The notes below the pieces were generated by a model that was not told the DNA's origin, ran no database searches, and was given only the letters and a program-made list of their open reading frames with translations. A stretch of 64,000 bases of DNA. Source: Cyclobacterium plantarum. Its GTDB lineage: Bacteria > Bacteroidota > Bacteroidia > Cytophagales > Cyclobacteriaceae. A program made the position numbers and the translations under genes. Shown here piece after piece: positions 39,901 to 63,850 of the stretch (position 1 is the first letter of the stretch; each line of letters begins with the position of its first letter). The DNA is taken from positions 62,001 to 126,000 of the forward strand of contig NZ_JAANYN010000005.1 in NCBI RefSeq assembly GCF_011290685.1. Direction: 5' to 3'.

Positions 39901-40627
39901 GTTGACGGGAGAGGCCTGGATCGAAATTCAGGGCGGGACTGGCGAAACCTATGAAATATCCTGGAATACAGGAGATCAAAATGTTTTGGAAACACAGTTT
40001 TTTGAGGATGGAGTAGTGGAAGTTAGGGTGACCGATGAGAGCGGATGCAGCATTGAAGTTGCGGAAGTGGTGACCATGCCGCTGGCTTTTTCTGAAGCAG
40101 AGTTCCTATATACCGTTTTATCCACCGGTGTGGAGGGAGAAATCCTTGTCAATGATCCTGTACAATTCAGGGACCAAACCCTGGGGAATGTATTTACCTG
40201 GGAATGGGATTTTGGTGATGGGAATAAAAGCAACGAGCAACATCCCATCCACAGTTATACCAAACCTGGTACCTATACGATCAGCCTGACTACTTTTGAT
40301 GTATTGGGCTGTGTCTCAGAAACCAGCAGAACAGTGGAAGTGGTAGCCTCATACAGGATCCTGATTCCGAATGCTTTTTCGCCCAATGATGATGGGTTGA
40401 ATGACTACTTTAAACCTAAATTAAGAGGCATAACAGATTTTGAAATGCACATTTTCAACAAGTGGGGAGAATTGGTGTATTCCGCCTTTAGTCAGGAGGA
40501 TGCGGGCTGGGATGGCAGATTGAAAGGTCAGTTGAGTCCGAACGGGAATTATGTGTACAAAATCAACTATGTTACTGTGGATGGAGAACCAGGTACCCAA
40601 ACAGGTGTGTTTACGCTCATTTATTGA
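30938..40627 (+). CDS. Giant SprB-repeat cell-surface protein with T9SS type B C-terminal domain
   Basis: The protein has 3229 residues. A signal peptide (about 1-27, LFMLIALLWLSGAKEAWSA) is followed by about 37 SprB-type repeats of 75-85 residues each, each with a core like DVSCFGGADGSISL, then GGTAPYTYxW, GxYxVxVTDxNGC and ExPxPL. A PKD domain (about 3055-3138, with FTWEWDFGDGNKSNEQHP) and a gliding-motility-associated C-terminal domain (3139-3229, IPNAFSPNDDGLNDYF, then FNKWGELVY and LSPNGNYVYKI) complete it. This C-terminal domain type is secreted and fixed to the surface by the T9SS with help from a PorP/SprF protein, and the next gene encodes one. SprB of Flavobacterium is a mobile adhesin for gliding. 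Here a role in adhesion or gliding is likely, but other uses such as polysaccharide binding are open. Confidence 0.95.
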   Translation: MLNRYPNSSLFMLIALLWLSGAKEAWSAPIIRDVFVFSECEKMASIRVRNGVAPYTYVWSYEGNIVQTDAGLGESDMSTIEQAQGGDYNLTVTDSDGNTYTETINFSGSTNFILNILYEENQECEGETFGQVYGTIENGIAPFTINFFDESDALVLTTVLNGRNLDLNGVPAGSYLVEVIDATGCKELTSVEIEEVEPLVLAPGAGAGTFPETCEANGGVTFDATDFFGDVAFRIRRANGSYATGWLPAPGGQIRYDQLEAGDYVLEVTDDYRLEDCPEELVFNIANEQLLEVSFNTSPVSCFGDADGVIYLEAERLFMGFSFPPDEIIVDILDPANNLVVNGQVISIGALSGEADFPGLSAGEHTVIVRHGGVDYPECTLTYTVNIEAPPSALTASVSSTPEICFGAADGTATVSRSGGWGGYSYLWSDGQTTRTASGLSPGDYSVRISDSGGCYLDLDVTVEGPAEAISGDITLLSGLTCVGSNDGSARVFDIQGGWGNYSIEWSNGETGPEASQLPAGINTVTVRDEEGCEHTFSVDVSVPDAPDISYTATEPSCFGAADGSIRVQIHEASTTYTVTVDGEVQTGNDLLFEGLPAGQQEVRISYSSVCNITSFITIDAPDELLINEDNLNISPISCTGAEDGAISGITASGGTGTLTYQWEKEISGTFQELVGESGLSLDNLSGGTYRLRVWDENDCSVSRDFVVYEPDPLQAGNPLVTDVSCFGAADGSVSFTISGGTAPYTYTLNGGVSQSTSNSPILLSGLTAATDNFIVVTDANGCTVPNINFDILAPPAIVISDVDIQAETCFGQGNGSIQLNVSGGSGSFSYEWFRASDPSTVIATDKDLTNRPPGQYILEVSDLNHTTCTLQETFVIPITPELELSLDGEPVDVLCYGESTGAISIAVEGGTGNYIFDWEGPDGYSSDQQNPSSLAAGLYQVRVTDENGCWEQLSDILISEPSSAVSISLLNKVSPKCHDSEDGRIEIQVGGGRPGYQINWERAVSPGVFVAIPGSSLTLSGIGSGTYRALVQDANTCIAALEVDLDGPEPLQVNLIDKQDVSCFGRNDGQIALEVTGGSGVYFFDWDHGFINQNPTNLGEGTYAVTVSDANGCSFRLDNIQIDQPDALQIELDEVIAPSCGLDDGSVSVSFIGGDPLTASSRWVELSTETVIAEDQNVVSGLSPGFYRIEYSTGGNCTVTRTVNVPGPSSPLQLVTNSQDAVCPGESGIIFLSASGGVPGYTYYILDGGIWEVATGSILAGLPAGDYDVRVDDASGCQDFDVITINEPNPPVFDAEVTSQVSCFGGDDGTITFSISGGTGTYTVQWYRKTALGGKSPIADSSLSSLITGTYFMEIVYAGGCTVTSPDYEITSPDPIIHSTDLDQPVCYDDSGLFSITFSGGNPGKSLILTADNGYSMSHNDEVSGTYTFEDLEPGNYSWLLEDVSCTVVEGNFTIEDILQPTFSSSHQDISCFGAADGSLEINAPSIHSGRTFSVWINGVSQGNQTSFFNMNPGIYQVWLQDNRGCQSEPQVIEITEPESPLAVEQVVVSPVICHGDNSGSLSFEIVGGRPNYRALLIPDGGSGVSLSGLNEGETYEFSGLTAGEYTLEVWDDNDNCTISASITITQPELLTADLAAGLILCEGGTTFLELTVEGGTLPYVFTWERFDVVAGSWQTLPETGNGLIGIQAGDYRYTVTDASTCLLLSEEVTIADAHEIEIAFAAEEISCYGGSAQVSLSASSPGKDSFTFFVNGSQIFGETFQAQAGTYAVYAQDNINGCLSDEIFITMDQPAAPLEVKDFSWQDLSCFEAADGSISLVLEGGTAPYTIVVNGNTYTASENEVLLIDGLSADVSYDFDVTDAKGCILDIPSKTLQQPLPLQALATAPAISCFGGATSINLQVTGGLKPYSISWAYSTDGIDFVPLPSLENETLLPDRDPGHYLYSIGDGACGFLTDTIHVQAPAAVELDAESFDVSCFGGNDGRVTLMPFGGTGSGFRIFFNGVEVPGSEISGLTAGTYTAFVMNGTCRSEDISITVSQPSAPLLGLVDYPEELACHGDEGTVTLSLSGGTSPYTVSLNGEESTLAIAGDLFFAGMAAGSYLVEVVDEAGCSWEENFTIAEPDPLSIFTEDVIDVSCFGGADGSISLMASGGSGSYTYRWFDDAAAEIGTGRHISGLSAGNYRVEVMDENGCLIAQDYEVEAPEPVDFTFSVQNVTCAGSQNGQISAIGSGGRPDYHLIINGIHYPGLLANGLASNTYQVQVMDANGCISPTREVRVEEPLPLQLDAEIQDVSCYAANDGRVTLQVEGGTAPYQYRWSDGNTLSERSGMAPGNYEVIITDSNGCTVRDQVLILQPEALLVQADIQPVSCFGGSDGQIRLDISGGNGSYTVVWEALSTGLEIGSGALIEGLASGRYLALIQDDNGCVIQREYLVSEPSSPLSVVPLVTDVRCAGEGSGGINLVVSGGTAPYSFNWSSGEVTSSISNKNGGIYQVQVMDANGCIWTDSIAIDEPDPVGVTAAITDVSCKMGADGAIDLTITGGTGEPRVQWSNGMTGTSISGLRAGVYTAFVLDEQSCFDSYTFIVNEPEEELTVSGNGSFELCFVEDVVTLDLEVSGGTAPYQYAWSNGATEKDLFDIAPGNYEVTVTDAKGCTVIRTFEVPPPTSPMDVTISGKLGVCSVNERGEANVTVSGGLAPYSFLWSNGATTSSTDNLTPGVYSVDVTDAKGCVVRREVEIIRSRNLQISLEDIQGVSCFGANDGSISIRVQPEGGAFQILWSNGVADQLTISDLGPGVYTATITDEAGCVTSAAYQVREPEILNVYETIADVDCHGNGNGSIFLEVRGGTAPYNFAWSNGANSKDLRNLEPGTYSVVVTDRMGCSTGGTYTVAEPAPLEVNISQTDMLACHGDANGFINLDISGGVQPYRITWSDAPDLGTQNRNGLEAGSYTVLVTDDNNCTQVNTIVIEEPAPLRVELFTRFDVDCELKVLTGEAWIEIQGGTGETYEISWNTGDQNVLETQFFEDGVVEVRVTDESGCSIEVAEVVTMPLAFSEAEFLYTVLSTGVEGEILVNDPVQFRDQTLGNVFTWEWDFGDGNKSNEQHPIHSYTKPGTYTISLTTFDVLGCVSETSRTVEVVASYRILIPNAFSPNDDGLNDYFKPKLRGITDFEMHIFNKWGELVYSAFSQEDAGWDGRLKGQLSPNGNYVYKINYVTVDGEPGTQTGVFTLIY
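31043..40090 (+). repeat. Array of about 37 SprB-type coding repeats
   Basis: About 37 units of roughly 240 bp are encoded in tandem. They were counted from successive Cys-x-G/D-G cores such as SCFGAADGSI, SCFGGDDGTI and SCYAANDGRV. Sequence identity between units is low at protein level except in the core, but some short DNA stretches are identical, for example a 26-nt segment at 37718-37743 and at 38417-38442. Each unit probably forms an immunoglobulin-like beta fold. Unit 1 starts soon after the signal peptide, and the final unit ends before the PKD domain. Confidence 0.85.
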
Positions 40628-40669
40628 GGAGGAAATAAATTTTTTGAAGCAATTTAAATTAATGGAGAG

Positions 40670-41695
40670 ATGAAAAAGTTTTGTGTATCATTTGTTTTTC
40701 TTTTGGCCTGGGGATTTTCCTGGGGTCAGGACATTCAATATTCTCAGTTCTATGCTGCTCCATTATATTTGAATCCAGCTTTTACCGGCTCAACCGAACT
40801 CACCCGGATAGGGGCAAATTTCCGAAACCAATGGCCGGGTTTGGACCATTCATTTGTTTCCTATTCGGCCTACATTGATCATTACATGTTTGACATCAAT
40901 TCCGGAATTGGACTAATCGTAAACTCCACCCGTGAAAGTCAATCGAGGTTAAGTACCAATGAAGTTGGCCTTGCCTATGCTTACAAACTTCATTTGGGAG
41001 TAGACACTTACCTTAGGTTTGGAGGACAGGCGAGTTTTATTTCCCGAGACGCCTATTTTGGAGATTTGATTTTCGGTTCCCAACTGGACATTGAGCGGGG
41101 ATATATTGATGACTTCAGTGGGGAGTTATTTGGGCATGATTTCAAACATAGTTTTCTGGATTATAATTTTGGCATGCTCTTCCATACCCAAATGTTTTGG
41201 TTGGGAATTTCGGGACATCACTTATCCGAACCCAATACCTCTTTTATTGATGGAAATATCAGCAAGCTCCCCATGAAGCTTTCAGCTCACGGCGGGATTA
41301 AATTTAACCTGGGGGAAGGGATGATCAATAATTATTACAGCAATACGAGGCAGGAAAGATCAGCTTTCTTTGCTTTTAATTATAAAAGGCAAGACCCATT
41401 TAATCAACTTGATCTCGGTGCCCAGATTTTCATAGAACCTTTAATATTGGGTGTTTGGTACCGGGGATTTCCGGTCAAATACCAACTCCCCAACAATGAG
41501 TCTATCGTCGGTTTGCTGGGTGTAGCACTCAACAGTGGCATAGATATAGGGTACAGCTATGATTTCACTTCCTCCAAACTCACACTGGGAAGTTCGGCAG
41601 GGGCTCATGAAATATCCATTAGGTATTCATTTTTGTATGGAGATCCCAAGGAAAGAAATAAAAGGAGCACCATAATTCCTTGTTTCCGGTTTTAA
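40670..41695 (+). CDS. PorP/SprF family T9SS outer-membrane protein
   Basis: The 341-residue protein has a signal peptide (MKKFCVSFVFLLAWGFSWGQ), then the family start DIQYSQFYAAPLYLNPAFTGS, and many amphipathic strands that would form a beta barrel, ending in an aromatic-rich strand. SprF of Flavobacterium is needed for secretion of SprB, and PorP/SprF proteins commonly pair with a neighbouring giant type B substrate. The gene starts 42 bp after the stop of the giant adhesin on the same strand, so the pair is most likely an operon in which this protein serves the adhesin. It converges on murA with 4 bp between stops. Confidence 0.94.
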   Translation: MKKFCVSFVFLLAWGFSWGQDIQYSQFYAAPLYLNPAFTGSTELTRIGANFRNQWPGLDHSFVSYSAYIDHYMFDINSGIGLIVNSTRESQSRLSTNEVGLAYAYKLHLGVDTYLRFGGQASFISRDAYFGDLIFGSQLDIERGYIDDFSGELFGHDFKHSFLDYNFGMLFHTQMFWLGISGHHLSEPNTSFIDGNISKLPMKLSAHGGIKFNLGEGMINNYYSNTRQERSAFFAFNYKRQDPFNQLDLGAQIFIEPLILGVWYRGFPVKYQLPNNESIVGLLGVALNSGIDIGYSYDFTSSKLTLGSSAGAHEISIRYSFLYGDPKERNKRSTIIPCFRF

Positions 41696-50431: not shown

Positions 50432-51022
50432 ATGTCCGAAGTACAGCGAAAAAAATATTCAGATAAAGAGAAAAACAGCATTTTTGATCATGAGTTCATG
50501 CCTCATATTGACTCTATGTACAATTTTGCCTTCAGATTGACCTTTGATGAAGATGATGCGAAGGATCTGGTGCAGGACACCTACCTGAAAGCATACCGTT
50601 TTATCAATTCTTTTGAGAAAGGGACAAATGCGAAAGCCTGGCTTTTCAGGATCCTGAAAAACAGCTTTATCAACGAGTACAGAAAGAAAAGCAAGCAACC
50701 CTCCAAGGTAGATTATCAGGAAGTTGAAACTTATTATAACTCGGATAATGTTGATTATAATATGACCTCGGATTTGAGGGTAGATGCCGTCAAAGACATG
50801 TTGGGCGATGAGATTTCCAATGCCCTTAACAGTTTGGCAGTTGATTTCAGGACTGTTATCATTCTTTGCGACCTGGAGGGTTTTACCTATGAAGAAATGG
50901 CCAAGATCCTGGATATTCCAATTGGGACAGTTCGTTCCAGGCTACACAGGGCAAGGAACCTTTTGAAGGACAAACTTCGTTCTTACGCCGAAAATATGGG
51001 CTATGATACAGAGGAAGAATAA
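50432..51022 (+). CDS. RNA polymerase ECF-type sigma factor
   Basis: The 196-residue protein has sigma region 2 (MYNFAFRLTFDEDDAKDLVQDTYLKAYRFI, with core-binding and -10 recognition helices; about 25-95) and region 4 (about 130-185: VIILCDLEGFTYEEMAKILDIPIGTVRSRLHRAR). Region 3 is absent, as in extracytoplasmic function sigma factors. The next gene, 22 bp on, encodes a small zinc-finger-like anti-sigma protein, which fits a regulated pair. The gene is divergent from the lipid A acyltransferase gene. An inverted repeat TTGGCT/AGCCAA (50384-50389 and 50408-50413) precedes it. Its regulon is unknown. Confidence 0.95.
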   Translation: MSEVQRKKYSDKEKNSIFDHEFMPHIDSMYNFAFRLTFDEDDAKDLVQDTYLKAYRFINSFEKGTNAKAWLFRILKNSFINEYRKKSKQPSKVDYQEVETYYNSDNVDYNMTSDLRVDAVKDMLGDEISNALNSLAVDFRTVIILCDLEGFTYEEMAKILDIPIGTVRSRLHRARNLLKDKLRSYAENMGYDTEEE

Positions 51023-52468: not shown

Positions 52469-53854
52469 TCAGTCCTTTAGTGCAGTGTTGGTTGTATTTC
52501 CCTTCCGGGTGCTGATTTTTTCGTTAATTTGTTTCGCGATGGCTTTTCCCTGGTCAACACCATGATCAATGGCCGGAAGGTAATGTATTCCACCGTAAAA
52601 CCTGCTGATGGCAGCCTCCTCCGCAGCTTCCCTAAACGAATCAAATTCACGAATACCTAAACCATATTTTACCTCGGTGGAATCCATAAAATGGAAAGGT
52701 TCTCCCAGTAGCCTTGTCAGGGCGATAGATGCTGCCGTGGAGATTACACTATGCCCACTGGTGTATTCAGGAAAAGGAGGTGTTTGGAGAAGGGGCAGCC
52801 AATCCTGATCCATGTATTGGTTGATGTACGTTTCAGGCCTTATCAAAACACTTCTGTATTTTTCGTCCCAACAGGAGATGAAGGCATCAAAAAGATATAT
52901 TGATGTTACAGCCATGGCTTCAGCGGTTTGTTTCCAGTCCAGGTTTCCGGCTTTGGAGGCAATACCCGTAATGCCCATCCAATGTCCGCCCGGAGTAATT
53001 TTCTTTTCCGCATACATCACATGCCCCTTTACATTCATCTTATAGGGGTTGCAATCCCAGAAGTAGGCTATTTCTTCCTGATTCTCATTCATTTGGTTGC
53101 CAGCATCCATTACCGCCTTGGCATCCAGAAAAAACCGGCTTTCCGGAAGAGTGTCGAATGGTGGTGGAGGAGGCGGGATAAACTGGTCGGCTGAATCCAG
53201 AAAAAAAGTCCGGATCTTATTCCAATGAGGTTCGATCCCCTCAATATAGGCGGGAGGGGTGGGCTTCCAGGAACCCGGGTCATTGTTGATGGTGTATTTT
53301 TCAAAGGACCTGCTCTGATGGTAATTGTCCCTTGAAGCATAGACCATAATTTCATCTGCCACTACTTCCCCCAGATGAACAGAAGCATCAAATTCGGCTC
53401 TTGGCATCCCTGCCATTAGAATCTTTTCATAGGCGGCCTCCTTATATGCCTCCATGTCCTGTTCAGAAAAAATCAAATTAGTGGCTACTTTACAGTATGC
53501 CGCCAGTGCAGACAAATGAAAGTTGATTTTCTCCCTATTTTCAATAGTTATGGCAAGGGGTTTGGAATCATTTAACTGCCCCATTAGGGAAGTATATTGT
53601 TCCGGGTCAGCCAATGCAGCTACCTCATAGGCAGCAATGGAAGGATAGGCATAAATCCTGCTCGCAACCGGAGGGGAAAAAATATCGTGCACAATGACAT
53701 CCGTTAACGCTCCATTGGCATCTACTAAAAAATAATGTTCTTCCAGTAAACTTTTGTACGCTTCATTTTCTTTGCACGAAGCCGTGAAAAGCATCAGGAA
53801 CAGGGGAATCAGAAGATGCCTGACCGGAATATTTTTTGGTGAAGAATTCATCAT
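52469..53854 (-). CDS. Vanadium-haloperoxidase/PAP2-type lipoprotein, copy 2
   Basis: The 461-residue protein starts with a lipoprotein signal (RHLLIPLFLMLFTASC), so it is anchored in the envelope. Three motifs of vanadium-dependent haloperoxidases and PAP2 phosphatases are intact: K332-x6-RP (KYRSVLIRP), SGH at 366-368 and SR-x5-H (SRFYGGIH, H424) followed by D430. These residues bind vanadate (or phosphate) and act in acid-base chemistry. Whether it oxidises halides or is a phosphatase cannot be told from sequence alone. It is 23 bp downstream of a closely related copy and is the last gene of the locus, after susC, susD and a VCBS lipoprotein gene. The two copies share order and spacing of all motifs, so they are probably a tandem duplication. 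Confidence 0.88.
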   Translation of the reverse strand: MMNSSPKNIPVRHLLIPLFLMLFTASCKENEAYKSLLEEHYFLVDANGALTDVIVHDIFSPPVASRIYAYPSIAAYEVAALADPEQYTSLMGQLNDSKPLAITIENREKINFHLSALAAYCKVATNLIFSEQDMEAYKEAAYEKILMAGMPRAEFDASVHLGEVVADEIMVYASRDNYHQSRSFEKYTINNDPGSWKPTPPAYIEGIEPHWNKIRTFFLDSADQFIPPPPPPFDTLPESRFFLDAKAVMDAGNQMNENQEEIAYFWDCNPYKMNVKGHVMYAEKKITPGGHWMGITGIASKAGNLDWKQTAEAMAVTSIYLFDAFISCWDEKYRSVLIRPETYINQYMDQDWLPLLQTPPFPEYTSGHSVISTAASIALTRLLGEPFHFMDSTEVKYGLGIREFDSFREAAEEAAISRFYGGIHYLPAIDHGVDQGKAIAKQINEKISTRKGNTTNTALKD

Positions 53855-53877
53855 ATTAATTGTAAAACTATATTGTC

Positions 53878-55287
53878 TTAATCGGCCTGTTTTTCAGTCA
53901 GGTTTTTTCCCGAATTTAAAAGATGCTGTTCATATTGCCCAATTATCCAATTAGCCACCTTCTTGCCCTGATCCTGTCCCCTGGTAATGGCATCCATAAA
54001 GTGAATACCGCCATAAAGTCTGGAAATACTCGCTTCCTCGGAAGCTTGCATAAAGGAATCGAAATCCCTGGTGCCCAGACCATATTTTTCTTCCACCGTA
54101 TCCGTGTAGGCAAAATCATCACCAAAAAAATGACTGAGGATCACGGCGGAAGTTGTGGATATGGTGGAGTGTCCACTCAGGTATTCAGGGAAGGGTGGGG
54201 TTTGTAACATGGGTTGGTAGTTTGGATCCAGGTACTTTCGGATAGCCGTTTCAGGCCTGATACGATCACTCCTGTATTTTTCATCCCAACAACTGATAAA
54301 TCCGTCCATTAATCCTAAAGCCACCAAAGTATTGATTTTCATGGATTCTTCAAACCCAAGCTTTGCTTTTTGGCAGGCAATATCAGTAATTCCCATCCAA
54401 TGTCCTCCGGGTGAAATTTGTTTGATACCCACCATCAGGTGCCCCGTTTCCTGTAAAGCAAATGGATTACAGTCCCAAAAGGCTGCTATTTCTCTTTGTT
54501 CTTTATTCATCTCCAGCTGATAAACCTCTTCCATTAAATGAAAAAATCTGGAATTGGAATCTGTGGAAAAGGCTTCAGGAGGCAGGGGTTTAAACTGGTC
54601 AGAGGAATGAAGCACAAATGGCCTTACGGTGTTGAAATAAGGCTCTACCGGTGCAAAGTAACCGGGAGGTGTGGGGTACCATTTGCCCTCTTCTGTAGAA
54701 GCCTGGTACCGGGGATAGTTACTTATTTCCTTGTATTTATCCGCCTGTGCATAAGTCAGAATTTGTTGGCTGATATTTTCACCGTAAGTTGCTGCTTTAC
54801 TGATTTCCTCTTCGGTATATCCCCTGGCAGCAGCAGAGTCTGTCAGGGCCATTTTAAAAGCTTTCATTTCCATACCAGAAGGTTGCATGCTGGCAGAAGT
54901 ATGTATCATGGCAAAGGCAGCACTCAGGGATGGGGAAGGGCTTTTCTCACCAGGGGCTTCGATGGGGGGAAGGCCGTTAATAAACCCAGAGAAGGAAGGA
55001 TAATTCTCATTCTCAAGAGCGATTACCTCATACCCGGATAGGCAGGCATAAGCATAAAATCTGGCTGCCAAAGGGGGGTTAGTGATGTCGTGCACCATGA
55101 GGTCAGTCATCTTTTCCGTAATCCAACCGATGGTTTCAGCCTCAATTGGTTTTTTTTCCAAAGAAGTATTGCAGGACACCGCAAGGGCAAGGACCAAAGC
55201 CAAATGAAGCGGCCTGGCCGGCAATATATGTCGAATAAACATTACTTTCCATTTCATTAAAAAAGGATTCAATTTATTGTAAGCCAT
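53878..55287 (-). CDS. Vanadium-haloperoxidase/PAP2-type lipoprotein, copy 1
   Basis: The 469-residue protein is a paralogue of the next gene. The signal ends near LALVLALAVSC, so a lipoprotein. Motifs are K337-x6-RP (KYRSDRIRP), SGH at 371-373 and SRLYGGIH with H429. The ATG at 55287 overlaps the end of the upstream VCBS gene by 14 bp; a second ATG at 55257 and a third at 55242 are possible starts. Both copies have IHDI/VHDI-like and SRDNYH-like regions in the N-terminal half, which look specific to this Bacteroidota subgroup. The locus lacks a halide or sulfatase gene. Substrate and metal are inferred only. Confidence 0.88.
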   Translation of the reverse strand: MAYNKLNPFLMKWKVMFIRHILPARPLHLALVLALAVSCNTSLEKKPIEAETIGWITEKMTDLMVHDITNPPLAARFYAYACLSGYEVIALENENYPSFSGFINGLPPIEAPGEKSPSPSLSAAFAMIHTSASMQPSGMEMKAFKMALTDSAAARGYTEEEISKAATYGENISQQILTYAQADKYKEISNYPRYQASTEEGKWYPTPPGYFAPVEPYFNTVRPFVLHSSDQFKPLPPEAFSTDSNSRFFHLMEEVYQLEMNKEQREIAAFWDCNPFALQETGHLMVGIKQISPGGHWMGITDIACQKAKLGFEESMKINTLVALGLMDGFISCWDEKYRSDRIRPETAIRKYLDPNYQPMLQTPPFPEYLSGHSTISTTSAVILSHFFGDDFAYTDTVEEKYGLGTRDFDSFMQASEEASISRLYGGIHFMDAITRGQDQGKKVANWIIGQYEQHLLNSGKNLTEKQAD

Positions 55288-58200
55288 AAGCTATTACTGC
55301 TCCCTGATTGACACCAAACAGGACATTACCTTCCAAATCAAGGATACTTCTTACATCACCTTTAACCTTCAAACCAGAATACTTCTGAGGCAGGTAGCTG
55401 AAGTTTCCTTCTCCATCTCCCGTAAGCACCGTTCCAAAATTGGCATCATATTTACCAAAACGTAATCTGGCCCGTTCAATGTTCCCTCCCAAAATTAAAT
55501 CTTCGTGTCCGTCTGCATTGAGATCCATGCTTTCAATCGCAAAAACAGGCGAGGCCTGAACCTCTAAAGGTAAAGGCACCCGTTTAAATGGCTGGTCTTT
55601 GCGGTTGATAAATAGGCTTGTTTCCAGGAAGTTTGCCTTCAGATAACCTGCCCCCTCAAGTTCGTTTTTGGAAAAAATATTTTCCAATTTGGCCTCAGCA
55701 AAGCTTGCGTAATCATTGAAACGTGTTCGCATCATGGATATTTGATCCAGAAGCTCATCCCTTGTCAGGTAAGGATAGGAGACGCCCTCTATATAGAAAC
55801 TTAAAATGGGGTCCACGGCACCATTGTTGTCAAAGTCTTTAAAATGCATTTCAGCAGGGCTGTCCTCGCTTGCTTTTACCTGGCTGTTTAATCCGTGATT
55901 TCCCACTACCAAATCGGGGAGCTTGTCCCCATTGACATCTGTAATGTGGAGGGTGTTCCACCAGCCCAGGTAGGAATCATCAAAGTAATTGGAAGTGTTG
56001 TTTACCAGTTTATTATCGGATAATTCAAATACGGCAATTGGCATCCATTCTCCTGTGACTACCAATTCCGAAAGCCCATTGCCATTGAGATCTGCCCAGG
56101 CTGCGTCAGTCACCAGACCCAGGGAAGCCAAATCCGGGTTCCATGTTGCCGTTTGGTCTTCAAATTTTCCATTGCCATCATTGATCAGGAGGTAGCTTTT
56201 GGGTGTTTCGGGATACCTTCCGGGAATGACCCTCCCTCCAATGAACAGGTCTGGAAAACCATCATTATTGATGTCTTGCGCAGCAATGGCTCCTGTGCTG
56301 GTAAGCATTTGAGGTAGTAAATCTACCTTTCGGACGAGGTTGCCTGTGCCATCATTGAGGTACAGCCTGTCTTGTAAAAGGGGGTCTTCAGGGAGAAAAT
56401 CTCCATAACCTCCACTGGCTACGAACAAATCAATATATCCATCACCGTTGAAATCTTCAAATACAGCATCTGTATCCTGGTAATCCCGGTCTTTTTCAAA
56501 ATCAGCCACTGCCTTTTTGGTAAACCTCCCATCGGCTTGCTGCAGGTATAAACTTCCGGACTGCCCAGGTTCTCCGCCAATAAAAAGATCAGGCAAACCA
56601 TCACCGTTTGCATCTCCTTTAATCATCACAGGACCGGTAAAGGATATGGGGTTCACCATCAAAGGTTGCCTCTTGAAGTCATTGGTTGTGTTTTCGGGGG
56701 ATTGATGGGCAATGGGGGACGTGGTTTCGACCAACAGGGGGTTGATTTTCCTTGGTGGTAGGGAGTTGATTCCCGCATTTCCTTTTAACACCTCTATTGT
56801 TTGGTTGCCTTTTATATTTTGAATCTTTTCAATGGAACCATCAGGCCAGATTATGTGAAGGGAATCAATCTGACTATTGGCTCCAAGGCCAAAATGAAGC
56901 ACCGGAGAAACACTGGACTGGTACCCCCTTGCTGGCATTTGCTGCATGGATTGCATGTTGCTATCCTGGTAAAGCTTTACTTTTGTTCCAATCCCATAGG
57001 TATTACCGGGATTACCTTTGAGTTTTATTTTTAAAAAGTGGTGGTCTGAAAGGGAATCCGCATTGTTTTGATAGATAAATGCGGGCAGGTTGATGTTATT
57101 AACGATAAGGTCAAGGTCACCATCATTGTCCAGGTCTGCATAAGCTGCGCCGTTGCTATTGGCCTGCTGTTCCATCCCCCAACCTGTTACCTTTTTTTCA
57201 AAATTCAAGCCATCTATATTTTTATATATATAATTTACAAGATTTGATGAGGGCATCTGATAGACCAGATCGAGAATGTTTTTCCTTCTCAGACCATTTT
57301 CGTTGTTTTTCAGGTAGTCGGCCATGTATTTCAGGAAATCCTGATTGGTATAATCCCTGAAATAACCATTTGTAACATACAAATCTTTCAAACCATCATT
57401 GTCAAAATCTGCAAAAAGAGCGGCCCAGCTCCAGTCGGTATTCGAAATACCCGCCAATTGGCCCATTTCACTGAAAGTGCCATTGCCATGGTTGATGTGA
57501 AGCATGTTCCTCATGTACTGGTGATGAAAACCCACGTTCAGGTTAAACTCAAATTTTTCGTAGTTATCCGGGGCCATCAGCAGCTTTTGCCTTTTGTTTC
57601 CTTCCGGCAACATGTCCAGCGTGAAGATGTCGGGATAGCCATCATTGTTGATATCTGCAATATCATTACCCATAGAAAAATGGGAAGTATGCCCCATGGC
57701 CTCGGCGATCACATCTGTAAAAGTCCCATCACCATTGTTGAGGTAAAGGTAATCCGGCACGGTGTAATCATTGCAAATGTAAATGTCCATCCAACCGTCG
57801 CCATTGATATCAGCAATACCTGCCCCCAGACCATAGGAAAGGGCGACGCGGAGAATACCGGATGCTTCCGTTATTTCTGTAAAGGTCTCTCCGTCATTCC
57901 GGAAAAGTTGCGGTCCCGCCTGATCCGAATTTTTCATGATGGCTGCTGTACTGGCTTCATCCAATACAGGGAGGGATTTTGGGTTATGGTTGAGCAGAAA
58001 AAGGTCCAGATCCCCATCATTGTCAAAATCAAAAAAGCTGGCCTGAGTACTGGTAGCTTCGCTGTCAATACCATATTGAGCAGCCATTTCCTTAAATAGG
58101 GGAACACCCTTATCGTTATTGCCCTGGTTGATGTAAAGTTCGTTTTTTCTTTTTTCAGGGGGGAGACTTCCGGAATAGCAAACATACAAATCCAACAGCC

Positions 58201-58603
58201 CGTCCCCATTGACATCGGCCATGCTTACCCCTGTCTTCCATGGACTGGATCGGGTGGCTACCCCGGAAATTTGGGTGATATCCTCAAATTCCATGTTTCC
58301 TTTGTTGAGATAAAGTTTGTTGGCCACCATGTTTCCGGAAAAGTAGAGATCATCCAGGCCATCCCCATTCAGGTCGCCTGTGGCTACCCCTCCTCCATTA
58401 TAAAAATATTCATATACCAGAATGTTGGTGTTCAATCCTTCCGTAAGGGTGTTTTCGAAGTCAATACCGGTCTTTTCCGGACTTAATAAGGTAAATTGCT
58501 TTATCTCAGGTTCTTTTTGACTTTTCTTCTGACACGATTGGCAATAAAAGCCTAAAAGGAACAAACTGATTAAAGGTACTTTGAGGCGGAGATAATTGAA
58601 CAT
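55274..58603 (-). CDS. FG-GAP/ASPIC-UnbV (CRTAC1-like) repeat lipoprotein
   Basis: The protein has 1109 residues. The signal ends in a Cys-rich stretch (LLGFYCQSC), consistent with a lipoprotein. The body has about 14 VCBS/FG-GAP calcium-binding loops of type D-x-[ND]-x-D-G-x-x-D (DLNGDGLDDLYF, DVNGDGLLDLYV, DINNDGYPDIFT, DANGDGLPDLFI and others), expected to form two beta-propellers. An ASPIC/UnbV domain (about 527-604: YGIGTKVKLYQ to NQTIEVLKG) lies between them. A C-terminal part (about 880-1109) has no repeat signature that I recognise. CRTAC1-like proteins are secreted or surface proteins without a proven enzymatic role. The gene sits 189 bp after susD and overlaps the start of the haloperoxidase gene by 14 bp. 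Confidence 0.9.
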   Translation of the reverse strand: MFNYLRLKVPLISLFLLGFYCQSCQKKSQKEPEIKQFTLLSPEKTGIDFENTLTEGLNTNILVYEYFYNGGGVATGDLNGDGLDDLYFSGNMVANKLYLNKGNMEFEDITQISGVATRSSPWKTGVSMADVNGDGLLDLYVCYSGSLPPEKRKNELYINQGNNDKGVPLFKEMAAQYGIDSEATSTQASFFDFDNDGDLDLFLLNHNPKSLPVLDEASTAAIMKNSDQAGPQLFRNDGETFTEITEASGILRVALSYGLGAGIADINGDGWMDIYICNDYTVPDYLYLNNGDGTFTDVIAEAMGHTSHFSMGNDIADINNDGYPDIFTLDMLPEGNKRQKLLMAPDNYEKFEFNLNVGFHHQYMRNMLHINHGNGTFSEMGQLAGISNTDWSWAALFADFDNDGLKDLYVTNGYFRDYTNQDFLKYMADYLKNNENGLRRKNILDLVYQMPSSNLVNYIYKNIDGLNFEKKVTGWGMEQQANSNGAAYADLDNDGDLDLIVNNINLPAFIYQNNADSLSDHHFLKIKLKGNPGNTYGIGTKVKLYQDSNMQSMQQMPARGYQSSVSPVLHFGLGANSQIDSLHIIWPDGSIEKIQNIKGNQTIEVLKGNAGINSLPPRKINPLLVETTSPIAHQSPENTTNDFKRQPLMVNPISFTGPVMIKGDANGDGLPDLFIGGEPGQSGSLYLQQADGRFTKKAVADFEKDRDYQDTDAVFEDFNGDGYIDLFVASGGYGDFLPEDPLLQDRLYLNDGTGNLVRKVDLLPQMLTSTGAIAAQDINNDGFPDLFIGGRVIPGRYPETPKSYLLINDGNGKFEDQTATWNPDLASLGLVTDAAWADLNGNGLSELVVTGEWMPIAVFELSDNKLVNNTSNYFDDSYLGWWNTLHITDVNGDKLPDLVVGNHGLNSQVKASEDSPAEMHFKDFDNNGAVDPILSFYIEGVSYPYLTRDELLDQISMMRTRFNDYASFAEAKLENIFSKNELEGAGYLKANFLETSLFINRKDQPFKRVPLPLEVQASPVFAIESMDLNADGHEDLILGGNIERARLRFGKYDANFGTVLTGDGEGNFSYLPQKYSGLKVKGDVRSILDLEGNVLFGVNQGAVIAYGLQ

Positions 58604-58624
58604 AGAGATGATTGAATATTCCTA

Positions 58625-58632
58625 CAAATATA
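58625..58632 (-). promoter_or_regulatory. Putative -7 box for the CRTAC1-like gene
   Basis: The minus strand reads TATATTTG, a match to TAnnTTTG, giving a start near 58619 and a leader of about 16 nt. It follows a terminator behind susD, so the last three genes may be a separate transcription unit. No good -33 was found. Confidence 0.45.
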
Positions 58633-58729
58633 AGAAGAATTGACAAGCTTAGCAGTATTTTCACAGGGGACTAGAAAGACACTCCTTATCTATGACAATT
58701 CAGGGAACCCGGATATGAACCAAGAATAT

Positions 58730-58765
58730 GGACAAAAAAAGAAAGGACGACCAGCTGGCCGTCCC
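58730..58765 (-). terminator. Terminator after susD
   Basis: On the minus strand GGACGGCC pairs with GGTCGTCC (58764-58757 with 58752-58745; one G-T pair), with an AGCT loop, followed by TTTCTTTTTTT. It lies 28 bp past the susD stop and would end the susCD transcript. Confidence 0.65.
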
Positions 58766-58792
58766 TTCTTCAATTCATTAAAATGCGTCTTA

Positions 58793-60661
58793 TCAATCAG
58801 TATATCCAGGATTCTGAATGAGGTTTTCGTTTCGCTGTGTTTCATCGAAACTGATTGGCATCCAATACATTTTGTCCAGCCAGAGTCTGTTTTCCTTACC
58901 AGGGTCGATTTCTATCACCTCGTAGGAATAATCATAAAGGTCTGGATCGTAGCGGTAAATCTGAACCTCCTCACCTGGTTTTAAAGTGCCTACTATACTG
59001 ATGCCATTTGGCTGCCTGCCCAAAGTTTCAGGAGCAATCATCCATCTTCTGGCATCGTAATACCTTTGCTCTTCGTGAACCATCTCCTTACGTTTTTCAT
59101 TGATGAAGATGTTCCACAACTCTTCTCCTGATGCGGTAACGGCCGGCAAACCTGCCCTGAACCTGATTTTGTTCAGCCAATTTCTGGCCTCCTCATAATC
59201 TCCCAAGGCAATATTGGCTTCTACATAGTTGAAAACAACCTCTGTATAACGTAAATGTGGCCAGGGAATTTCCTGCCAGGTGTTCTGGTCTACAAAACCA
59301 GGATCTGGCTCAATGAATTTACGCAGATAATAACCTGTATAACTACCGTTCCAGTCTTCAATAGGGCTGTTTCTGGTATCCAGTCCAAAATGGGTAACTT
59401 TTTGTCCTTGTGCATTCACGACTTCATAAGTTCCGGTCTGGATTTGTCCTCTTGGATCTCTTGCCTGATTTGCTGAAGAGCGGGGTTTCCATTGCGCACC
59501 TTCAAAGAGGAAAGTCGCATAGAATCTGGGCTCCCGGCCCTCATATGGCGCGCTGGCATGATCTTCATTGTCCCAGTCAAAATCCGACCCATCCATCATT
59601 TGGTAGTCATCGATCAATAATTGAACCGGGGTATTACCAGCCCAGTTGTTGTATCCGTTAGGACCATTGTGTAGTCCGTGACGGCCACCTGTTTCAGGCT
59701 TTTGAGAAAGGAAATACCTGCCAAAGATCATTTCATTTTCCCCACCATTTCTGGAAAGGGAATTGTTGATATAAGTTTGAACAGCTTCTTCTTGAGGCAA
59801 TGGCTCGGTAAGATCAAGCATGTTGCCGCCTGTTTTGTCCAATACAGCTTTGGCAGCTGCTTCTGCCCGCTGATAGCGGTCAGCCTGGCTTCCTGAAGTA
59901 TATCCGATCAATTCTTTGTTTTGATAACCTGAGATTACATCGGAATTTGCTGATGCAGTAGGCATATCGTGGAGATCGGATGCCGCATAGATCAACACCC
60001 TTGATTTTAAAGCCAGAGCAGCGATTTCATTGGCCCGACCACGGGTAAGGCTAAGGCCTTCCAGCAATTGGGCAGAACGGTCCAAATCTTCAATGATAAA
60101 ATCTACCACCTCTTCAAAGGAATTTCTGGGAAGCGCGTAGGTTTCTTCTCCCAGTTCAAATACCCGGTCGGCCAAAGGCACACCGCCAAAGTTTCTCAGT
60201 AACTGGTGGTGAAAATAGGCTCTCATGAACAAGGCTTCGCCCAATAACCTGTCTACAATGCCGCCATCATTGGGGAATTGAGGATCACTCAGGTTGCTGA
60301 TGGCAATATTGGTAGCCCTAAGGCTATTGTACATATTCGGCCAGTTCCGTGTGCCATCCAGCCATCCCGGGTTTTGTGGGTTAGACCTTGCCTCAGTTAC
60401 TGTGGTAATATTTCTACCCGGATGGGTAAAGATGGCTTCGTCAGTCAAAGAGGCCAAAGCCTGCTCGCTGAACCCTCCCTGTCCCAAACCGGTATACAGG
60501 TCTGTGACAAAAGCTTCTGCAAGTCCTGCATCTGCCCAAACGGCAGATTCAGATACTTCTCCAAGAGGTTGGGTATTCAAAAACTCATCATTACAGGAAA
60601 AATGTAACAAAGAGATCGCCAGGCCCAACCCTAGATATTTTATATTTTTCATCATATTCAA
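58793..60661 (-). CDS. SusD/RagB family nutrient-binding lipoprotein
   Basis: The 622-residue protein has a lipoprotein signal ending at HFSC, then the SusD start NDEFLNTQPLGEVSESAVWAD and TPR-like helical pairs. The C-terminal region has the ERR/YDARRW and IPWPHLRYTEVVFNYVEAN motifs of the family. SusD binds a ligand at the cell surface and caps the SusC barrel. It starts 12 bp after susC, and the two are co-transcribed. No glycoside hydrolase, sulfatase or ECF-type regulator is in the locus, so the ligand cannot be guessed. The start may be the first ATG or Met4. Confidence 0.95.
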   Translation of the reverse strand: MNMMKNIKYLGLGLAISLLHFSCNDEFLNTQPLGEVSESAVWADAGLAEAFVTDLYTGLGQGGFSEQALASLTDEAIFTHPGRNITTVTEARSNPQNPGWLDGTRNWPNMYNSLRATNIAISNLSDPQFPNDGGIVDRLLGEALFMRAYFHHQLLRNFGGVPLADRVFELGEETYALPRNSFEEVVDFIIEDLDRSAQLLEGLSLTRGRANEIAALALKSRVLIYAASDLHDMPTASANSDVISGYQNKELIGYTSGSQADRYQRAEAAAKAVLDKTGGNMLDLTEPLPQEEAVQTYINNSLSRNGGENEMIFGRYFLSQKPETGGRHGLHNGPNGYNNWAGNTPVQLLIDDYQMMDGSDFDWDNEDHASAPYEGREPRFYATFLFEGAQWKPRSSANQARDPRGQIQTGTYEVVNAQGQKVTHFGLDTRNSPIEDWNGSYTGYYLRKFIEPDPGFVDQNTWQEIPWPHLRYTEVVFNYVEANIALGDYEEARNWLNKIRFRAGLPAVTASGEELWNIFINEKRKEMVHEEQRYYDARRWMIAPETLGRQPNGISIVGTLKPGEEVQIYRYDPDLYDYSYEVIEIDPGKENRLWLDKMYWMPISFDETQRNENLIQNPGYTD

Positions 60662-60673
60662 TGTTTTTTGGAT

Positions 60674-63600
60674 TTAGAATGTTACGGACAAACCAGCATT
60701 GATGACTCTCGCCTGCGGATAATATTGTCCGGTGGCATTGTCAGATTCCGGGTCATACACTTTTAACTTGTCCCAGGTGAGAAGGTTTAGCCCATTGGCA
60801 TAGAACCTCAGGTTGCTGATGCCAAATCTTTCTCCAAACTGCTGAGGAACAGTATAACCTATCTCCAGGTTTTTCAGACGGATGTAATCAGAACTCCTGT
60901 ACCAGAAATCATTTCCTCCGGAATAATACTGATCACTCCTGTTTGCAATTCTTGGATACTCAGTGCTTTCATTATCGATAGTCCATCGGTTTTCATAGAA
61001 TTCCAACAGGTAGTTACCAATGTTTCCGGATTCACCCAAACTCACCAAAGCAATGGCGCCGGCAGCACCCTGGAACAATACAGACATGTCCCAATTTCTG
61101 AAGGTGGCATTCATATTCACGCCTCCTTGAAACCTGGGGATGTTGTTTCTGTCCAATCGTACCCTATCCAAAGGTGTGATGGCACCATCACCGTCATAGT
61201 CCTTGAATCTCATATCACCAGGACGCAGCTGGTTAGTAATGTCGGTGTAATCCAATTCCTCTGCATCGATGGCCGCCTGGTTAGGGAAAACACCATCGTA
61301 AAGGTATACAGGATCCGGGGTATTCATAGGCTTGCCGGTAGCCAATTGCCAGTCTGGTGCTCCCGGAGGCTCATCCCAGAAAAGTATTTTGTTTTTGGCA
61401 TAGCCACCATTGGCACTGATGCTGTAGGAAAGGTCTCCCTTTTGCCCCCTGTAGCCAATATTAAAATCAAATCCTTTGTTTTCTACTTCCCCAATATTTT
61501 CAGCCGGAAGCAGGTCGGCCAGGCCACTGGACTGGGGAACAGAGGCGTTTTTTCTCCAAAGAATGTTGGTCCTGAGGTTATAGAAATAATCCAGTTCGAA
61601 AAATACCTGTCCCTGCAGCAATTGACCTTCTATACCAATATTGGTATTGTTGGCCACCTCCCAGGTAATTCCTGTATTGGGTACCCGGGTTTCAAACAGT
61701 GTTTTGGCTTCTGTACCTTCAAGTATATGGCTTCTGAACCCATAAGTAGATAGGAACTGGTATTCCTGAAGTTCATCATCATAGAAAATCTGGTCATTAC
61801 CCATTTGTCCCCAGGATCCCCTTATTTTGAAGAAATCCAAAGCAGGTATGTTGTTTTTCCAGAAATCCTCCTCAGAAACTACCCATCCTGCCATTACACC
61901 AGGAAAGAAACCAAATCTTGTGGCCTCGGGGAAAATATAAGACCCATCATATCTCCACAGAAATTCGAAAAGATACTTTTCCTGGAAGTTATAAGCCACC
62001 CTACCGAAATAGTTTAGACGGGCTCTCTCAAAAGCTCCACCGCCATTGTCTTTTTCGGCATCACCACCGGCAAACATCTGGTCGATCGCAGGAGAGATAA
62101 AGAACCTTCTGTAAGCAAAGAAATCATCCCCTTCTACTGTTTCCTGGTTCACCCCGGCCAACGCGGTAAACTGATGCTCACCGAATTGCTTTTCATAGGT
62201 AAATACACCACCCAAAAGGATGTTTAACTGGTTGATGTTTTCTTGCCTCAGCCTAGGCTCGGCAGGTCCTCTTAAGCTGGGTACCAGGACAGGAGTGACC
62301 CCGTCTGCTTCAAAACCACTGCCTCTTTGGTAAAGAGTCCAGGGGGTTTCCCACCTTTTCATGAACCTGCTCAGGTTATCGACTGCTGCAGTTCCTTGAA
62401 ATTTCAAACCTTCTACTCCGGGTATTTTAACATTTAAGGCACCATTGGTTTGGAAATAATTTCTGGTGTCCCTGTCATAGCCGGTAGCATTGGTAGTAAT
62501 GACTACAGGGTTTTCCCCGTTCTCAATGTCTGGTCCAGGTCTTCCATCAGGCCAGAATGCAGGCTCATGAGGCTTACCCCTCATTTGCATCCTGAAGATG
62601 GCTCCTGCACCTCTGGTTGGGAAAAAGCGGTACTCCTGACGGGCCAACACGCCCAACTGCAGGTCTACATATTCATTGATTTTTGCATCCAGGTTGATCC
62701 GCATATCATACTGCTTGAAACCTGTAGCGGAGTTTTTATAATAAGCATCCTGGTTTTGGTAACCCAAAGAAGCCATATATTGTACATTCTCTGATCCACC
62801 ATTCAGCTGAAGGTTATGCCTTACCTGAGGCGACCAGGTCTTCAGGGTTTCTCCATACCAATCTGTATTGGGGTAATTCCAGGGATCCGTACCGGCTCTG
62901 TGTAGAGCCAGGGCTTCAGGGCTGAAAGGCGCCGTTCTTTCCTGGCCGTCAGGAGTGGTATAGGTGCCTGTAGCCCGATAAGCATCCGTAGCGGCTCTCC
63001 ACTCCCCAACGGGAAGTTCGTACACACTGAGGTCATTCAGCATTTCTCCATACTGAGCGGCATCCGCCAATTCCGGAATAACGGTAGGTTGCGCAAATCC
63101 CTGATTGAACTGGTAGGTCAATTCGGGTTTTCCTTCTTTACCTCTTTTGGTGGTCACAAGGATTACTCCATTGGCGGCCCTTGCTCCATAAATGGCAGCA
63201 GATGCATCCTTTAGTACAGAGATGGTTTCTATATCATTCGGGTTAAGCCGGTCAATACCACCAGCCCTTGCAGGGATACCATCAATTACAATGAGTGCAT
63301 CATTGTTACCCAGGGTGTTTGAGCCCCGGATTCGAATGCCTGCACCATCATAACCAGGCTCACCGCTTCTGTTAACAGCGATGACACCAGACATCCTTCC
63401 GGCAATGGAATTGGTCAGGTTCATGGCAGGAGATTTAACCAGGTCTCCTCCTTTTACAGTAGCTACGGAGCCGGTAATGGTTTCCTTTTTCTGTTCACCA
63501 TAACCTACAACCACTACCTCACTCAGGGCCTGCATGTCTGGAGCTAAAATAATGTCAATATTACTTTGGTTGCCTACCACAACTTCCTGCTTGACAAAGC

Positions 63601-63850
63601 CCACAAAGGAATAGACCAAAGTCTCATCACCTGATTGAAGGGTAATCCGGTAGTTACCGTCAATATCGGTAACGGCACCACGTGTGGTGCCCTTTACCAA
63701 TACGGAAACACCCGGTAGTGGCAAATCGTCCTCAGCGGAAATGACTGTTCCCGTCACATCCCTGGACTGCGCATGTAATGTCAGGCTGCTTGCCAAAAGC
63801 AAGGCCAATCCCAACAAAAACAATTTTGTTTTGGGTAAATAGTTTTGCAT
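60674..63850 (-). CDS. SusC/RagA family TonB-linked outer membrane transporter
   Basis: The 1058-residue transporter has a signal peptide (about 1-28, LFLLGLALLLASSLTLHAQ), a CarboxypepD_reg-like domain (about 31-115: DVTGTVISAEDDLPLPGVSV), a plug (about 116-235: YGEQKKETITGSVATVKG, RIRGSNTLGNNDALIVIDG, DASAAIYGARAANGVILVTT) and a barrel that ends in an aromatic strand. SusC imports large ligands with energy from TonB. It is the first gene of this locus. Upstream 150 bp to the window edge show an inverted repeat GTTATT/AATAAC (63883-63899) but no TAnnTTTG box, so its promoter may lie further out. Confidence 0.96.
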   Translation of the reverse strand: MQNYLPKTKLFLLGLALLLASSLTLHAQSRDVTGTVISAEDDLPLPGVSVLVKGTTRGAVTDIDGNYRITLQSGDETLVYSFVGFVKQEVVVGNQSNIDIILAPDMQALSEVVVVGYGEQKKETITGSVATVKGGDLVKSPAMNLTNSIAGRMSGVIAVNRSGEPGYDGAGIRIRGSNTLGNNDALIVIDGIPARAGGIDRLNPNDIETISVLKDASAAIYGARAANGVILVTTKRGKEGKPELTYQFNQGFAQPTVIPELADAAQYGEMLNDLSVYELPVGEWRAATDAYRATGTYTTPDGQERTAPFSPEALALHRAGTDPWNYPNTDWYGETLKTWSPQVRHNLQLNGGSENVQYMASLGYQNQDAYYKNSATGFKQYDMRINLDAKINEYVDLQLGVLARQEYRFFPTRGAGAIFRMQMRGKPHEPAFWPDGRPGPDIENGENPVVITTNATGYDRDTRNYFQTNGALNVKIPGVEGLKFQGTAAVDNLSRFMKRWETPWTLYQRGSGFEADGVTPVLVPSLRGPAEPRLRQENINQLNILLGGVFTYEKQFGEHQFTALAGVNQETVEGDDFFAYRRFFISPAIDQMFAGGDAEKDNGGGAFERARLNYFGRVAYNFQEKYLFEFLWRYDGSYIFPEATRFGFFPGVMAGWVVSEEDFWKNNIPALDFFKIRGSWGQMGNDQIFYDDELQEYQFLSTYGFRSHILEGTEAKTLFETRVPNTGITWEVANNTNIGIEGQLLQGQVFFELDYFYNLRTNILWRKNASVPQSSGLADLLPAENIGEVENKGFDFNIGYRGQKGDLSYSISANGGYAKNKILFWDEPPGAPDWQLATGKPMNTPDPVYLYDGVFPNQAAIDAEELDYTDITNQLRPGDMRFKDYDGDGAITPLDRVRLDRNNIPRFQGGVNMNATFRNWDMSVLFQGAAGAIALVSLGESGNIGNYLLEFYENRWTIDNESTEYPRIANRSDQYYSGGNDFWYRSSDYIRLKNLEIGYTVPQQFGERFGISNLRFYANGLNLLTWDKLKVYDPESDNATGQYYPQARVINAGLSVTF

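Follow-up and report, generated by a model that had tools for sequence, protein, structure and literature searches.

Within a 64,000-nucleotide stretch of Cyclobacterium plantarum DNA (contig NZ_JAANYN010000005.1, positions 62,001 to 126,000; hereafter the window), we analysed a locus of five genes that occupies positions 52469-63850, entirely on the minus strand, as called from the open reading frame (ORF) list with Pfam and NCBIfam. The first gene in the direction of transcription (60674..63850) encodes a SusC/RagA-type TonB-dependent outer-membrane transporter of 1058 amino acids (aa; TIGR04056, 880 bits), and the second (58793..60661) a SusD/RagB lipoprotein with the lipobox HFSC (PF07980, 175 bits, and PF14322), whose 622 aa are counted from a TTG, with an ATG two codons further in. 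The third (55274..58603) encodes a giant CRTAC1-like FG-GAP/UnbV_ASPIC lipoprotein of 1109 aa (ASPIC below), with 10 FG-GAP_3 stretches and an UnbV_ASPIC domain of 81 bits. The last two encode lipoproteins of the vanadium haloperoxidase (VHPO) type: VHPO1 (53878..55287; 469 aa) and VHPO2 (52469..53854; 461 aa). A first-pass annotation had described susC, susD, an ASPIC lipoprotein and two PAP2/haloperoxidase-type genes running in one direction, and all of them are there. Since the gene set is conserved in relatives, a chance arrangement is excluded.

That annotation also spoke of overlaps and short gaps, which holds for three junctions: 12 bp separate SusC from SusD, ASPIC and VHPO1 overlap by 14 bp, and 23 bp lie between VHPO1 and VHPO2. 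It does not hold between SusD and ASPIC, where a gap of 189 bp contains a strong terminator-like hairpin found by hairpin scan (58738..58771; 15 pairs and a T-run), and because of this a single operon is uncertain. The same gap contains TATATTTG (58625..58632, reckoned from the scan offset), a Bacteroidetes -7-like element whose first base lies 29 bp 5' of the ASPIC start; it was compared with what we take to be the Bacteroidetes -7 consensus. The locus is flanked by frr and nadD, with gmk next to nadD, and nadD and VHPO2 meet tail to tail with zero gap. The lipobox regular expression fits SusD, VHPO1 and VHPO2 and misses ASPIC, whose N-terminal FYCQSC is lipoprotein-like by eye. As the first-pass annotation had noted, no glycoside hydrolase (GH) or sulfatase gene was found within 52469-63850, nor in the adjoining nadD, gmk and frr. 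No dedicated regulator (hybrid two-component system (HTCS), extracytoplasmic function (ECF)/anti-sigma or SusR) lies directly beside the locus, where the neighbours are frr and nadD; a sigma-like ORF (50432-51022) sits past nadD and gmk, and in the relative's locus L059 (L and G numbers are our labels for loci and genomes) it stays with these two genes, there away from VHPO, as judged by ORF size. Of the features of a polysaccharide utilisation locus, the window locus has the SusC-SusD pair, by Pfam and NCBIfam, and lacks the glycan-degrading enzyme and the dedicated regulator.

Both PAP2-fold proteins have as their top match in the Protein Data Bank (PDB), over the full length, the vanadium iodoperoxidase ZgVIPO1 of Zobellia galactanivorans (4cit/4usz; for 4cit, E 2.7e-108 for VHPO1 and 8.3e-136 for VHPO2), with identities of 40% and 50%, respectively. 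The PAP2 Pfam score of VHPO1 is above the cut-off of 27.2 bits (29.2), and that of VHPO2 just below it (25.5), although the 4cit match of VHPO2 spans its length. In the active-site alignment, all 11 positions checked in each protein are the same as in ZgVIPO1, including the Lys, Arg, Ser-Gly-His, Arg and His that we take to serve the vanadate site. This homology and these residues strengthen the earlier reading of the PAP2 proteins as haloperoxidases. The iodide specificity of ZgVIPO1 and its residue roles are reportedly treated by Fournier in 2014. In our tree, a quick search whose rows include 10 hand-picked ones (four of them from this genome or the PDB), a VIPO clade of 95 rows (Shimodaira-Hasegawa-like approximate likelihood ratio test (SH-aLRT) 100) holds the window VHPOs together with ZgVIPO1. 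Within this clade, 76 rows are ASPIC-linked, 15 unlinked and 4 unscored; for the 23 rows outside it, the numbers are 1, 19 and 3. VHPO1 and VHPO2 belong to separate subclades, the former to a 20-row branch (SH-aLRT 100) in which 19 rows are ASPIC-linked, and the latter to a larger branch of 32 rows that includes ZgVIPO1 (SH-aLRT 96).

The link between such VHPOs and giant ASPIC proteins extends across the class, which we sampled to lessen the bias to close kin. UnbV_ASPIC occurs in 64 of 149 genomes of the class and a VHPO-like match (E <= 0.001) in 35 of the same 149, and ZgVIPO1 finds a match at E <= 1e-60 in 60 of 395 genomes. The 100 loci fetched contain 105 VHPO-labelled genes, 82 of which reach a profile score of 330 (VIPO-like), while 23 fall below it; this limit was set after seeing the data and the profile was built on three proteins of this genome, including two from the window, with the tree clade as the check. 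A giant ASPIC (>= 700 aa) lies less than 14 kb from 65 of the 82 VIPO-like VHPOs vs 1 of the 23 more distant homologues. The VIPO-like set spans 54 genomes and 18 families; 49/82 have a same-strand adjoining ASPIC, 49/82 a SusD within 14 kb, and 47/82 both ASPIC and SusD. This count leaves out this genome, the G120 fragment, four of the weakest rows of the ZgVIPO1 search (G209, G212 twice and G351:C3) and class-wide VHPO rows with E above 1e-15, and it does not credit L132, whose adjoining ASPIC match of 630 aa is below the 700-aa limit. Contiguous SusC-SusD-ASPIC(1-3)-VHPO units with no intervening ORF were found in 26 of 80 class-wide loci, from 17 genomes and 7 families. The loci are not independent, many coming from related genomes. 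In several of them a shorter FG-GAP protein stands directly behind VHPO (L193:3046-4599 and similar), in which a CxxCH heme-type motif can be made out by eye close to the N-terminus, and a multi-CXXCH protein lies beside the one in L193.

Our co-inheritance analysis took the best match of each VHPO in another multi-locus genome and asked whether the best matches of its ASPIC, SusC and SusD there share that locus. They did so in 37/37 cases for ASPIC (12.7 by chance), 28/29 for SusC (10.0 by chance) and 30/32 for SusD (10.2 by chance); the known pair SusC-SusD, taken as a yardstick, gave 28/29 (10.6 by chance). When a single best locus over all genomes was taken, the agreement was lower, at 29/62, 17/41 and 19/48 for VHPO with ASPIC, SusC and SusD, respectively, and 30/40 for SusC-SusD. 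Since the best matches of VHPO and of SusC/ASPIC nearly always choose one locus, VHPO is, on this comparison of paralogous units, a co-inherited part of the SusCD/ASPIC locus, and the first-pass view of SusCD, the CRTAC1-like protein and VHPOs as one unit agrees with their being inherited together.

The gene order itself was followed in a scan of species genomes (419 relatives), from which the best 80 named loci were retained. The full order SusC-SusD-ASPIC-VHPO-VHPO is contiguous in eight of these, seven from Cyclobacterium and one from Pleomorphovibrio marinus, all adjoined by nadD and gmk as judged by ORF size. Thus, near relatives keep the five-gene order first noted in the window, the core of four genes recurs across the class, and its parts are inherited together. 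Two Litoribacter loci at the same nadD site read SusC-SusD-ASPIC-ASPIC-VHPO, and many loci of Algoriphagus and its kin carry ASPIC, a protein of about 195 aa, two further ASPICs and VHPO; the small protein (L053:2690-3277 and similar) looks like a lipoprotein and has no Pfam match. An ASPIC ORF of at least 300 aa is present in 76 of the 80 named loci, the exceptions being L085 and L092, which have none, L093, with a shorter one at its edge, and L027, which is cut at a contig end. Outside Cyclobacterium and Pleomorphovibrio, the window SusC is closest to those of L208 (57%) and L206 (56%), both in SusC-SusD-ASPIC-VHPO units. When the nadD sites of the window, L043, L076 and L184 were compared, the SusC of L184 was only 28% identical to that of the window; because it is so distant, there are hints that the upstream SusC-containing unit may have been swapped at this site between Litoribacter and Cyclobacterium.

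As for the ASPIC protein, its residues 34-613 form a CRTAC1-type propeller with the ASPIC domain and residues 620-1109 a second propeller. The AlphaFold2 model matches murine CRTAC1 (PDB 9etn), and the UnbV_ASPIC domain and FG-GAP propeller that define the CRTAC1/ASPIC-UnbV family are both present. Cartilage acidic protein 1 (CRTAC1) has an EGF domain, which by Pfam is absent from the window protein; unlike CRTAC1, the latter is of bacterial lipoprotein type and, with its second propeller, about twice as long. A general rule that a giant ASPIC goes with SusCD was considered and rejected: it is true for 6/6 cases in this genome (three contiguous in the same order, two convergent, and one interrupted by a gene on the opposite strand; in L015, SusD was named by its place behind SusC, without Pfam), but fails in G053, with seven ASPIC matches and zero SusC above the cut-off, and in G142, where one of nine ASPIC matches is near an above-cut-off SusC by coordinates.

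The hairpin behind susD is a common feature of these loci. A hairpin of <= -10 kcal/mol followed by a T-run occurs in 59 of 64 SusD-ASPIC gaps (nine of the 64 loci are from Cyclobacterium, Pleomorphovibrio or the window itself) vs 0, 1 and 1 of 64 in three shuffled sets, and the structure is kept while the sequences differ. A looser scan, which excluded gaps of <= 20 bp, found hairpins in 18/144 ASPIC-VHPO gaps and 1/78 SusC-SusD gaps. The TATATTTG octamer is present in the SusD-ASPIC gap of 6/8 Cyclobacterium/Pleomorphovibrio loci, and the motif TAnnTTTG in 20 of 61 SusD-ASPIC gaps vs a shuffled mean of 8.8, a modest excess (13/52 vs 8.1 without near kin); in ASPIC-VHPO gaps above 40 bp the excess is strong, at 52/67 vs a shuffled mean of 8.1, many of these loci being close kin. 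Because the hairpin follows susD and a -7-like element precedes ASPIC, these signals suggest that susCD is expressed apart from ASPIC-VHPO, and probably more strongly. It may be that ASPIC-VHPO forms an expression unit of its own, as VHPO by itself may do in many species.

The relatives also bear on the substrate. The two nearest units by SusC outside Cyclobacterium/Pleomorphovibrio carry a sulfatase (L208) and GH16 with a LacI regulator (L206), and more distant units carry GH2 with a hybrid two-component regulator (L217), GH30 and GH35 (L109), or GH65 and GH37 (L090). Altogether, the glycan genes near units elsewhere comprise GH65, GH37, GH13, GH30, GH35, GH3, GH16, GH43, GH2, GH29 and sulfatase, and the regulators LacI and hybrid two-component types (HTCS beside the L217 and L277 units). 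At least one glycan-type reference match is present in 31/63 ASPIC-linked loci vs 2/20 distant-homologue loci, a rough and biased comparison to which we give little weight, at least eight of the loci counted having supplied references. Since the relatives carry GHs, sulfatases and sugar-type regulators, this favours a glycan or glycoside, which may differ between units, over a halogenated compound. The earlier suggestion of a non-carbohydrate or halogenated substrate is thus unsupported, and nothing in the analysis shows SusCD importing a halogenated product.

Around ZgVIPO1 itself, the neighbourhood fits the SusCD-ASPIC-VHPO pattern in part. We searched 397 genomes of one family, presumably the Flavobacteriaceae, with ZgVIPO1; a gene 98% identical to it (G395, locus L259) comes after three ASPIC genes, and the congeners L261 and L262 have SusD beyond a symporter. 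Among 30 short loci of the Zobellia-containing family, VHPO is adjoined by ASPIC in 15; in longer stretches of symporter-type loci, ASPIC lies further off in L267, is a fragment in L264 and is not found in L268. Directly after VHPO, many loci of this family have a protein of about 300 aa (L259:3572-4471 and similar), in which a GyrI-like ligand-binding domain was found where scanned (L259).

By gene order and homology, the locus is a real, widely conserved SusCD variant with a co-inherited vanadium peroxidase and a CRTAC1-like protein, and its enzymes seem to belong genuinely to the uptake machinery. Sequence comparison shows directly the genes, their ZgVIPO1-type active sites, and that VHPO, ASPIC, SusC and SusD are both conserved and inherited together in several families of the class. 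On this basis, we think it somewhat probable that this is a SusCD unit for nutrient uptake, of the polysaccharide-utilisation kind, with vanadium peroxidase and two-propeller CRTAC1-like lipoproteins as regular parts. In such a unit, the VHPOs would very likely bind vanadate and oxidise iodide with hydrogen peroxide (H2O2), like their characterised homologue. VHPO1 and VHPO2 are probably exported lipoproteins at or near the outer membrane beside SusCD, which would import a glycan or glycoside, with the hydrolases for it plausibly encoded elsewhere in this genome. The CRTAC1-like protein might bind a ligand or the peroxidases at the surface. Conceivably, the peroxidases draw on H2O2 and halide in the surroundings of the food, such as algal tissue, and either destroy the peroxide or oxidise the substrate matrix, which would enable uptake. 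A bolder proposal, which we make only tentatively and consider rather unlikely, is that these are class-wide oxidative uptake loci: CRTAC1-scaffolded surface peroxidases would make hypohalite that attacks or unmasks a glycan or a phenolic or sulfated matrix, SusCD would import the pieces, and the two VHPOs of the window, each of its own subclade, would serve different halides or steps.

Several observations weigh against the nutrient-uptake reading. The window has no glycan hydrolase. A giant ASPIC was not found in the fetched DNA of 17/82 VIPO-like VHPOs (4 of these 17 had less than 5 kb upstream), nor in L085, L172, L177 and L178, which are near ZgVIPO1. SusCD was not seen in the DNA fetched for Lunatimonas (L029) or in the 19.9 kb fetched for L259, and in the Zobellia-containing family the other 15 of the 30 short loci have a symporter-like gene next to VHPO. 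Of the 75 giant ASPICs listed, only 25 have one of the 26 top VHPO rows nearby, so ASPIC proteins have other jobs too. The lipobox regular expression fits 50 of the 82 VIPO-like proteins; not every one of them, on this pattern, need be a lipoprotein. Since the residue aligned to the Asp of the ZgVIPO1 WDEK motif varies among ASPIC-linked VHPOs, their halide preference may differ. In addition, the named relatives include genera that we take to be from soil and soda lakes, where an iodide story is less obvious.

It is possible, if not likely, that the VHPOs are protective or act in iodine metabolism (peroxide removal, a hypoiodite weapon or signal quencher, iodine uptake) rather than on the nutrient, and that they share the locus since peroxide and iodide are met where the SusCD substrate is met. 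In line with this, VHPO seems to have its own promoter in many loci, as the TAnnTTTG excess before it indicates with the same reservation about close kin. Zobellia vIPO3 is up on Ascophyllum vs alginate and is discussed together with algal halogenated defence (PMC9296495), and iodine uptake with H2O2 has been described in Arenibacter C-21, a strain with five or more ZgVIPO homologues (PMC5064120). Yet the co-inheritance with particular SusC and SusD proteins is tighter than general protection would need, and in several genomes there is more than one unit, every one of which has a VHPO of its own. We find it improbable that VHPO1 and VHPO2 act as phosphatases of the PAP2 type, stripping the SusCD substrate of phosphate ahead of its uptake: the superfamily and the catalytic core are in common, zero NCBIfam haloperoxidase models match VHPO1 or VHPO2, and in L263 a convergent gene past VHPO encodes 1182 aa that include a calcineurin-like phosphoesterase domain (some same-family loci have neighbours of similar size, by size only), but the 40-50% identity over the full length to a solved vanadium haloperoxidase, with identical active-site positions, speaks for haloperoxidases. 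That VHPO is a mere passenger without functional coupling, brought next to its neighbours by common descent and the mobility of uptake loci, is very improbable, for although the eight five-gene loci, closely related and all at a single chromosomal site next to nadD, amount to about one event, the 26 contiguous units come from 7 families and paralogous units agree in 37/37 and 28/29 cases.

Some further observations stand apart from these arguments. A second locus of this genome (L012:1966-16257) has SusC, SusD, ASPIC, a DsbH-like thioredoxin protein and a VCPO-type haloperoxidase of another family, together with two ORFs read as a sigma factor and a FecR-like protein (candidates, no domain scan); the VCPO-type protein occurs in 13/395 genomes including this one, and in the other 12 no labelled partner was seen in the 1.5-kb flanks, which are short enough to overlook a more distant ASPIC. 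This locus is therefore only a candidate for a second, independent recruitment of a haloperoxidase. Upstream of SusC in a SusC-SusD-ASPIC-VHPO locus, L188:15028-18480 has two similar ORFs, of which the one scanned is a GMC oxidoreductase, a possible source of H2O2. Elsewhere in the window, 30938-41695 (plus strand) encodes a protein of 3229 aa in which 21 SprB-repeat stretches and a CHU_C type IX signal are found; PorP/SprF comes next, and the two make a pair of the gliding-adhesin type.

The co-inheritance of bacterial vanadium iodoperoxidases and CRTAC1-like proteins with specific SusCD pairs in several Bacteroidota families turns the physiological role of each into a testable question. Uptake units of the kind we favour would widen the set of enzymes in nutrient-uptake loci to include peroxidases and would connect iodine chemistry with the uptake of carbon; if they also worked oxidatively as proposed, bacterial iodoperoxidases would gain a nutritional role.

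In the literature that we searched, a collection thin in subscription journals, no description of a SusCD-ASPIC-VHPO locus was found, and none of the locus terms was found in PMC5613140. For Arenibacter C-21, a marine flavobacterium, a membrane-bound glucose oxidase and a haloperoxidase have been proposed (PMC5064120); unlike ours, that account gives no gene neighbourhood and no link to SusCD. ZgVIPO1 (PDB 4cit, 4usz) resembles the window proteins in family over the full length and in 11/11 positions, and its 98% identical counterpart also follows giant ASPICs, whereas in the window SusCD lies immediately upstream of one ASPIC and two VHPOs, which come from different subclades and whose activity is predicted. 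Compared with a SusCD polysaccharide utilisation locus, the window has peroxidases and a CRTAC1-like protein and is without GH, sulfatase or dedicated regulator; like such a locus, it consists of a TIGR04056/PF07980 SusC-SusD pair and then exported proteins, and its relatives carry GHs, sulfatases and HTCS.

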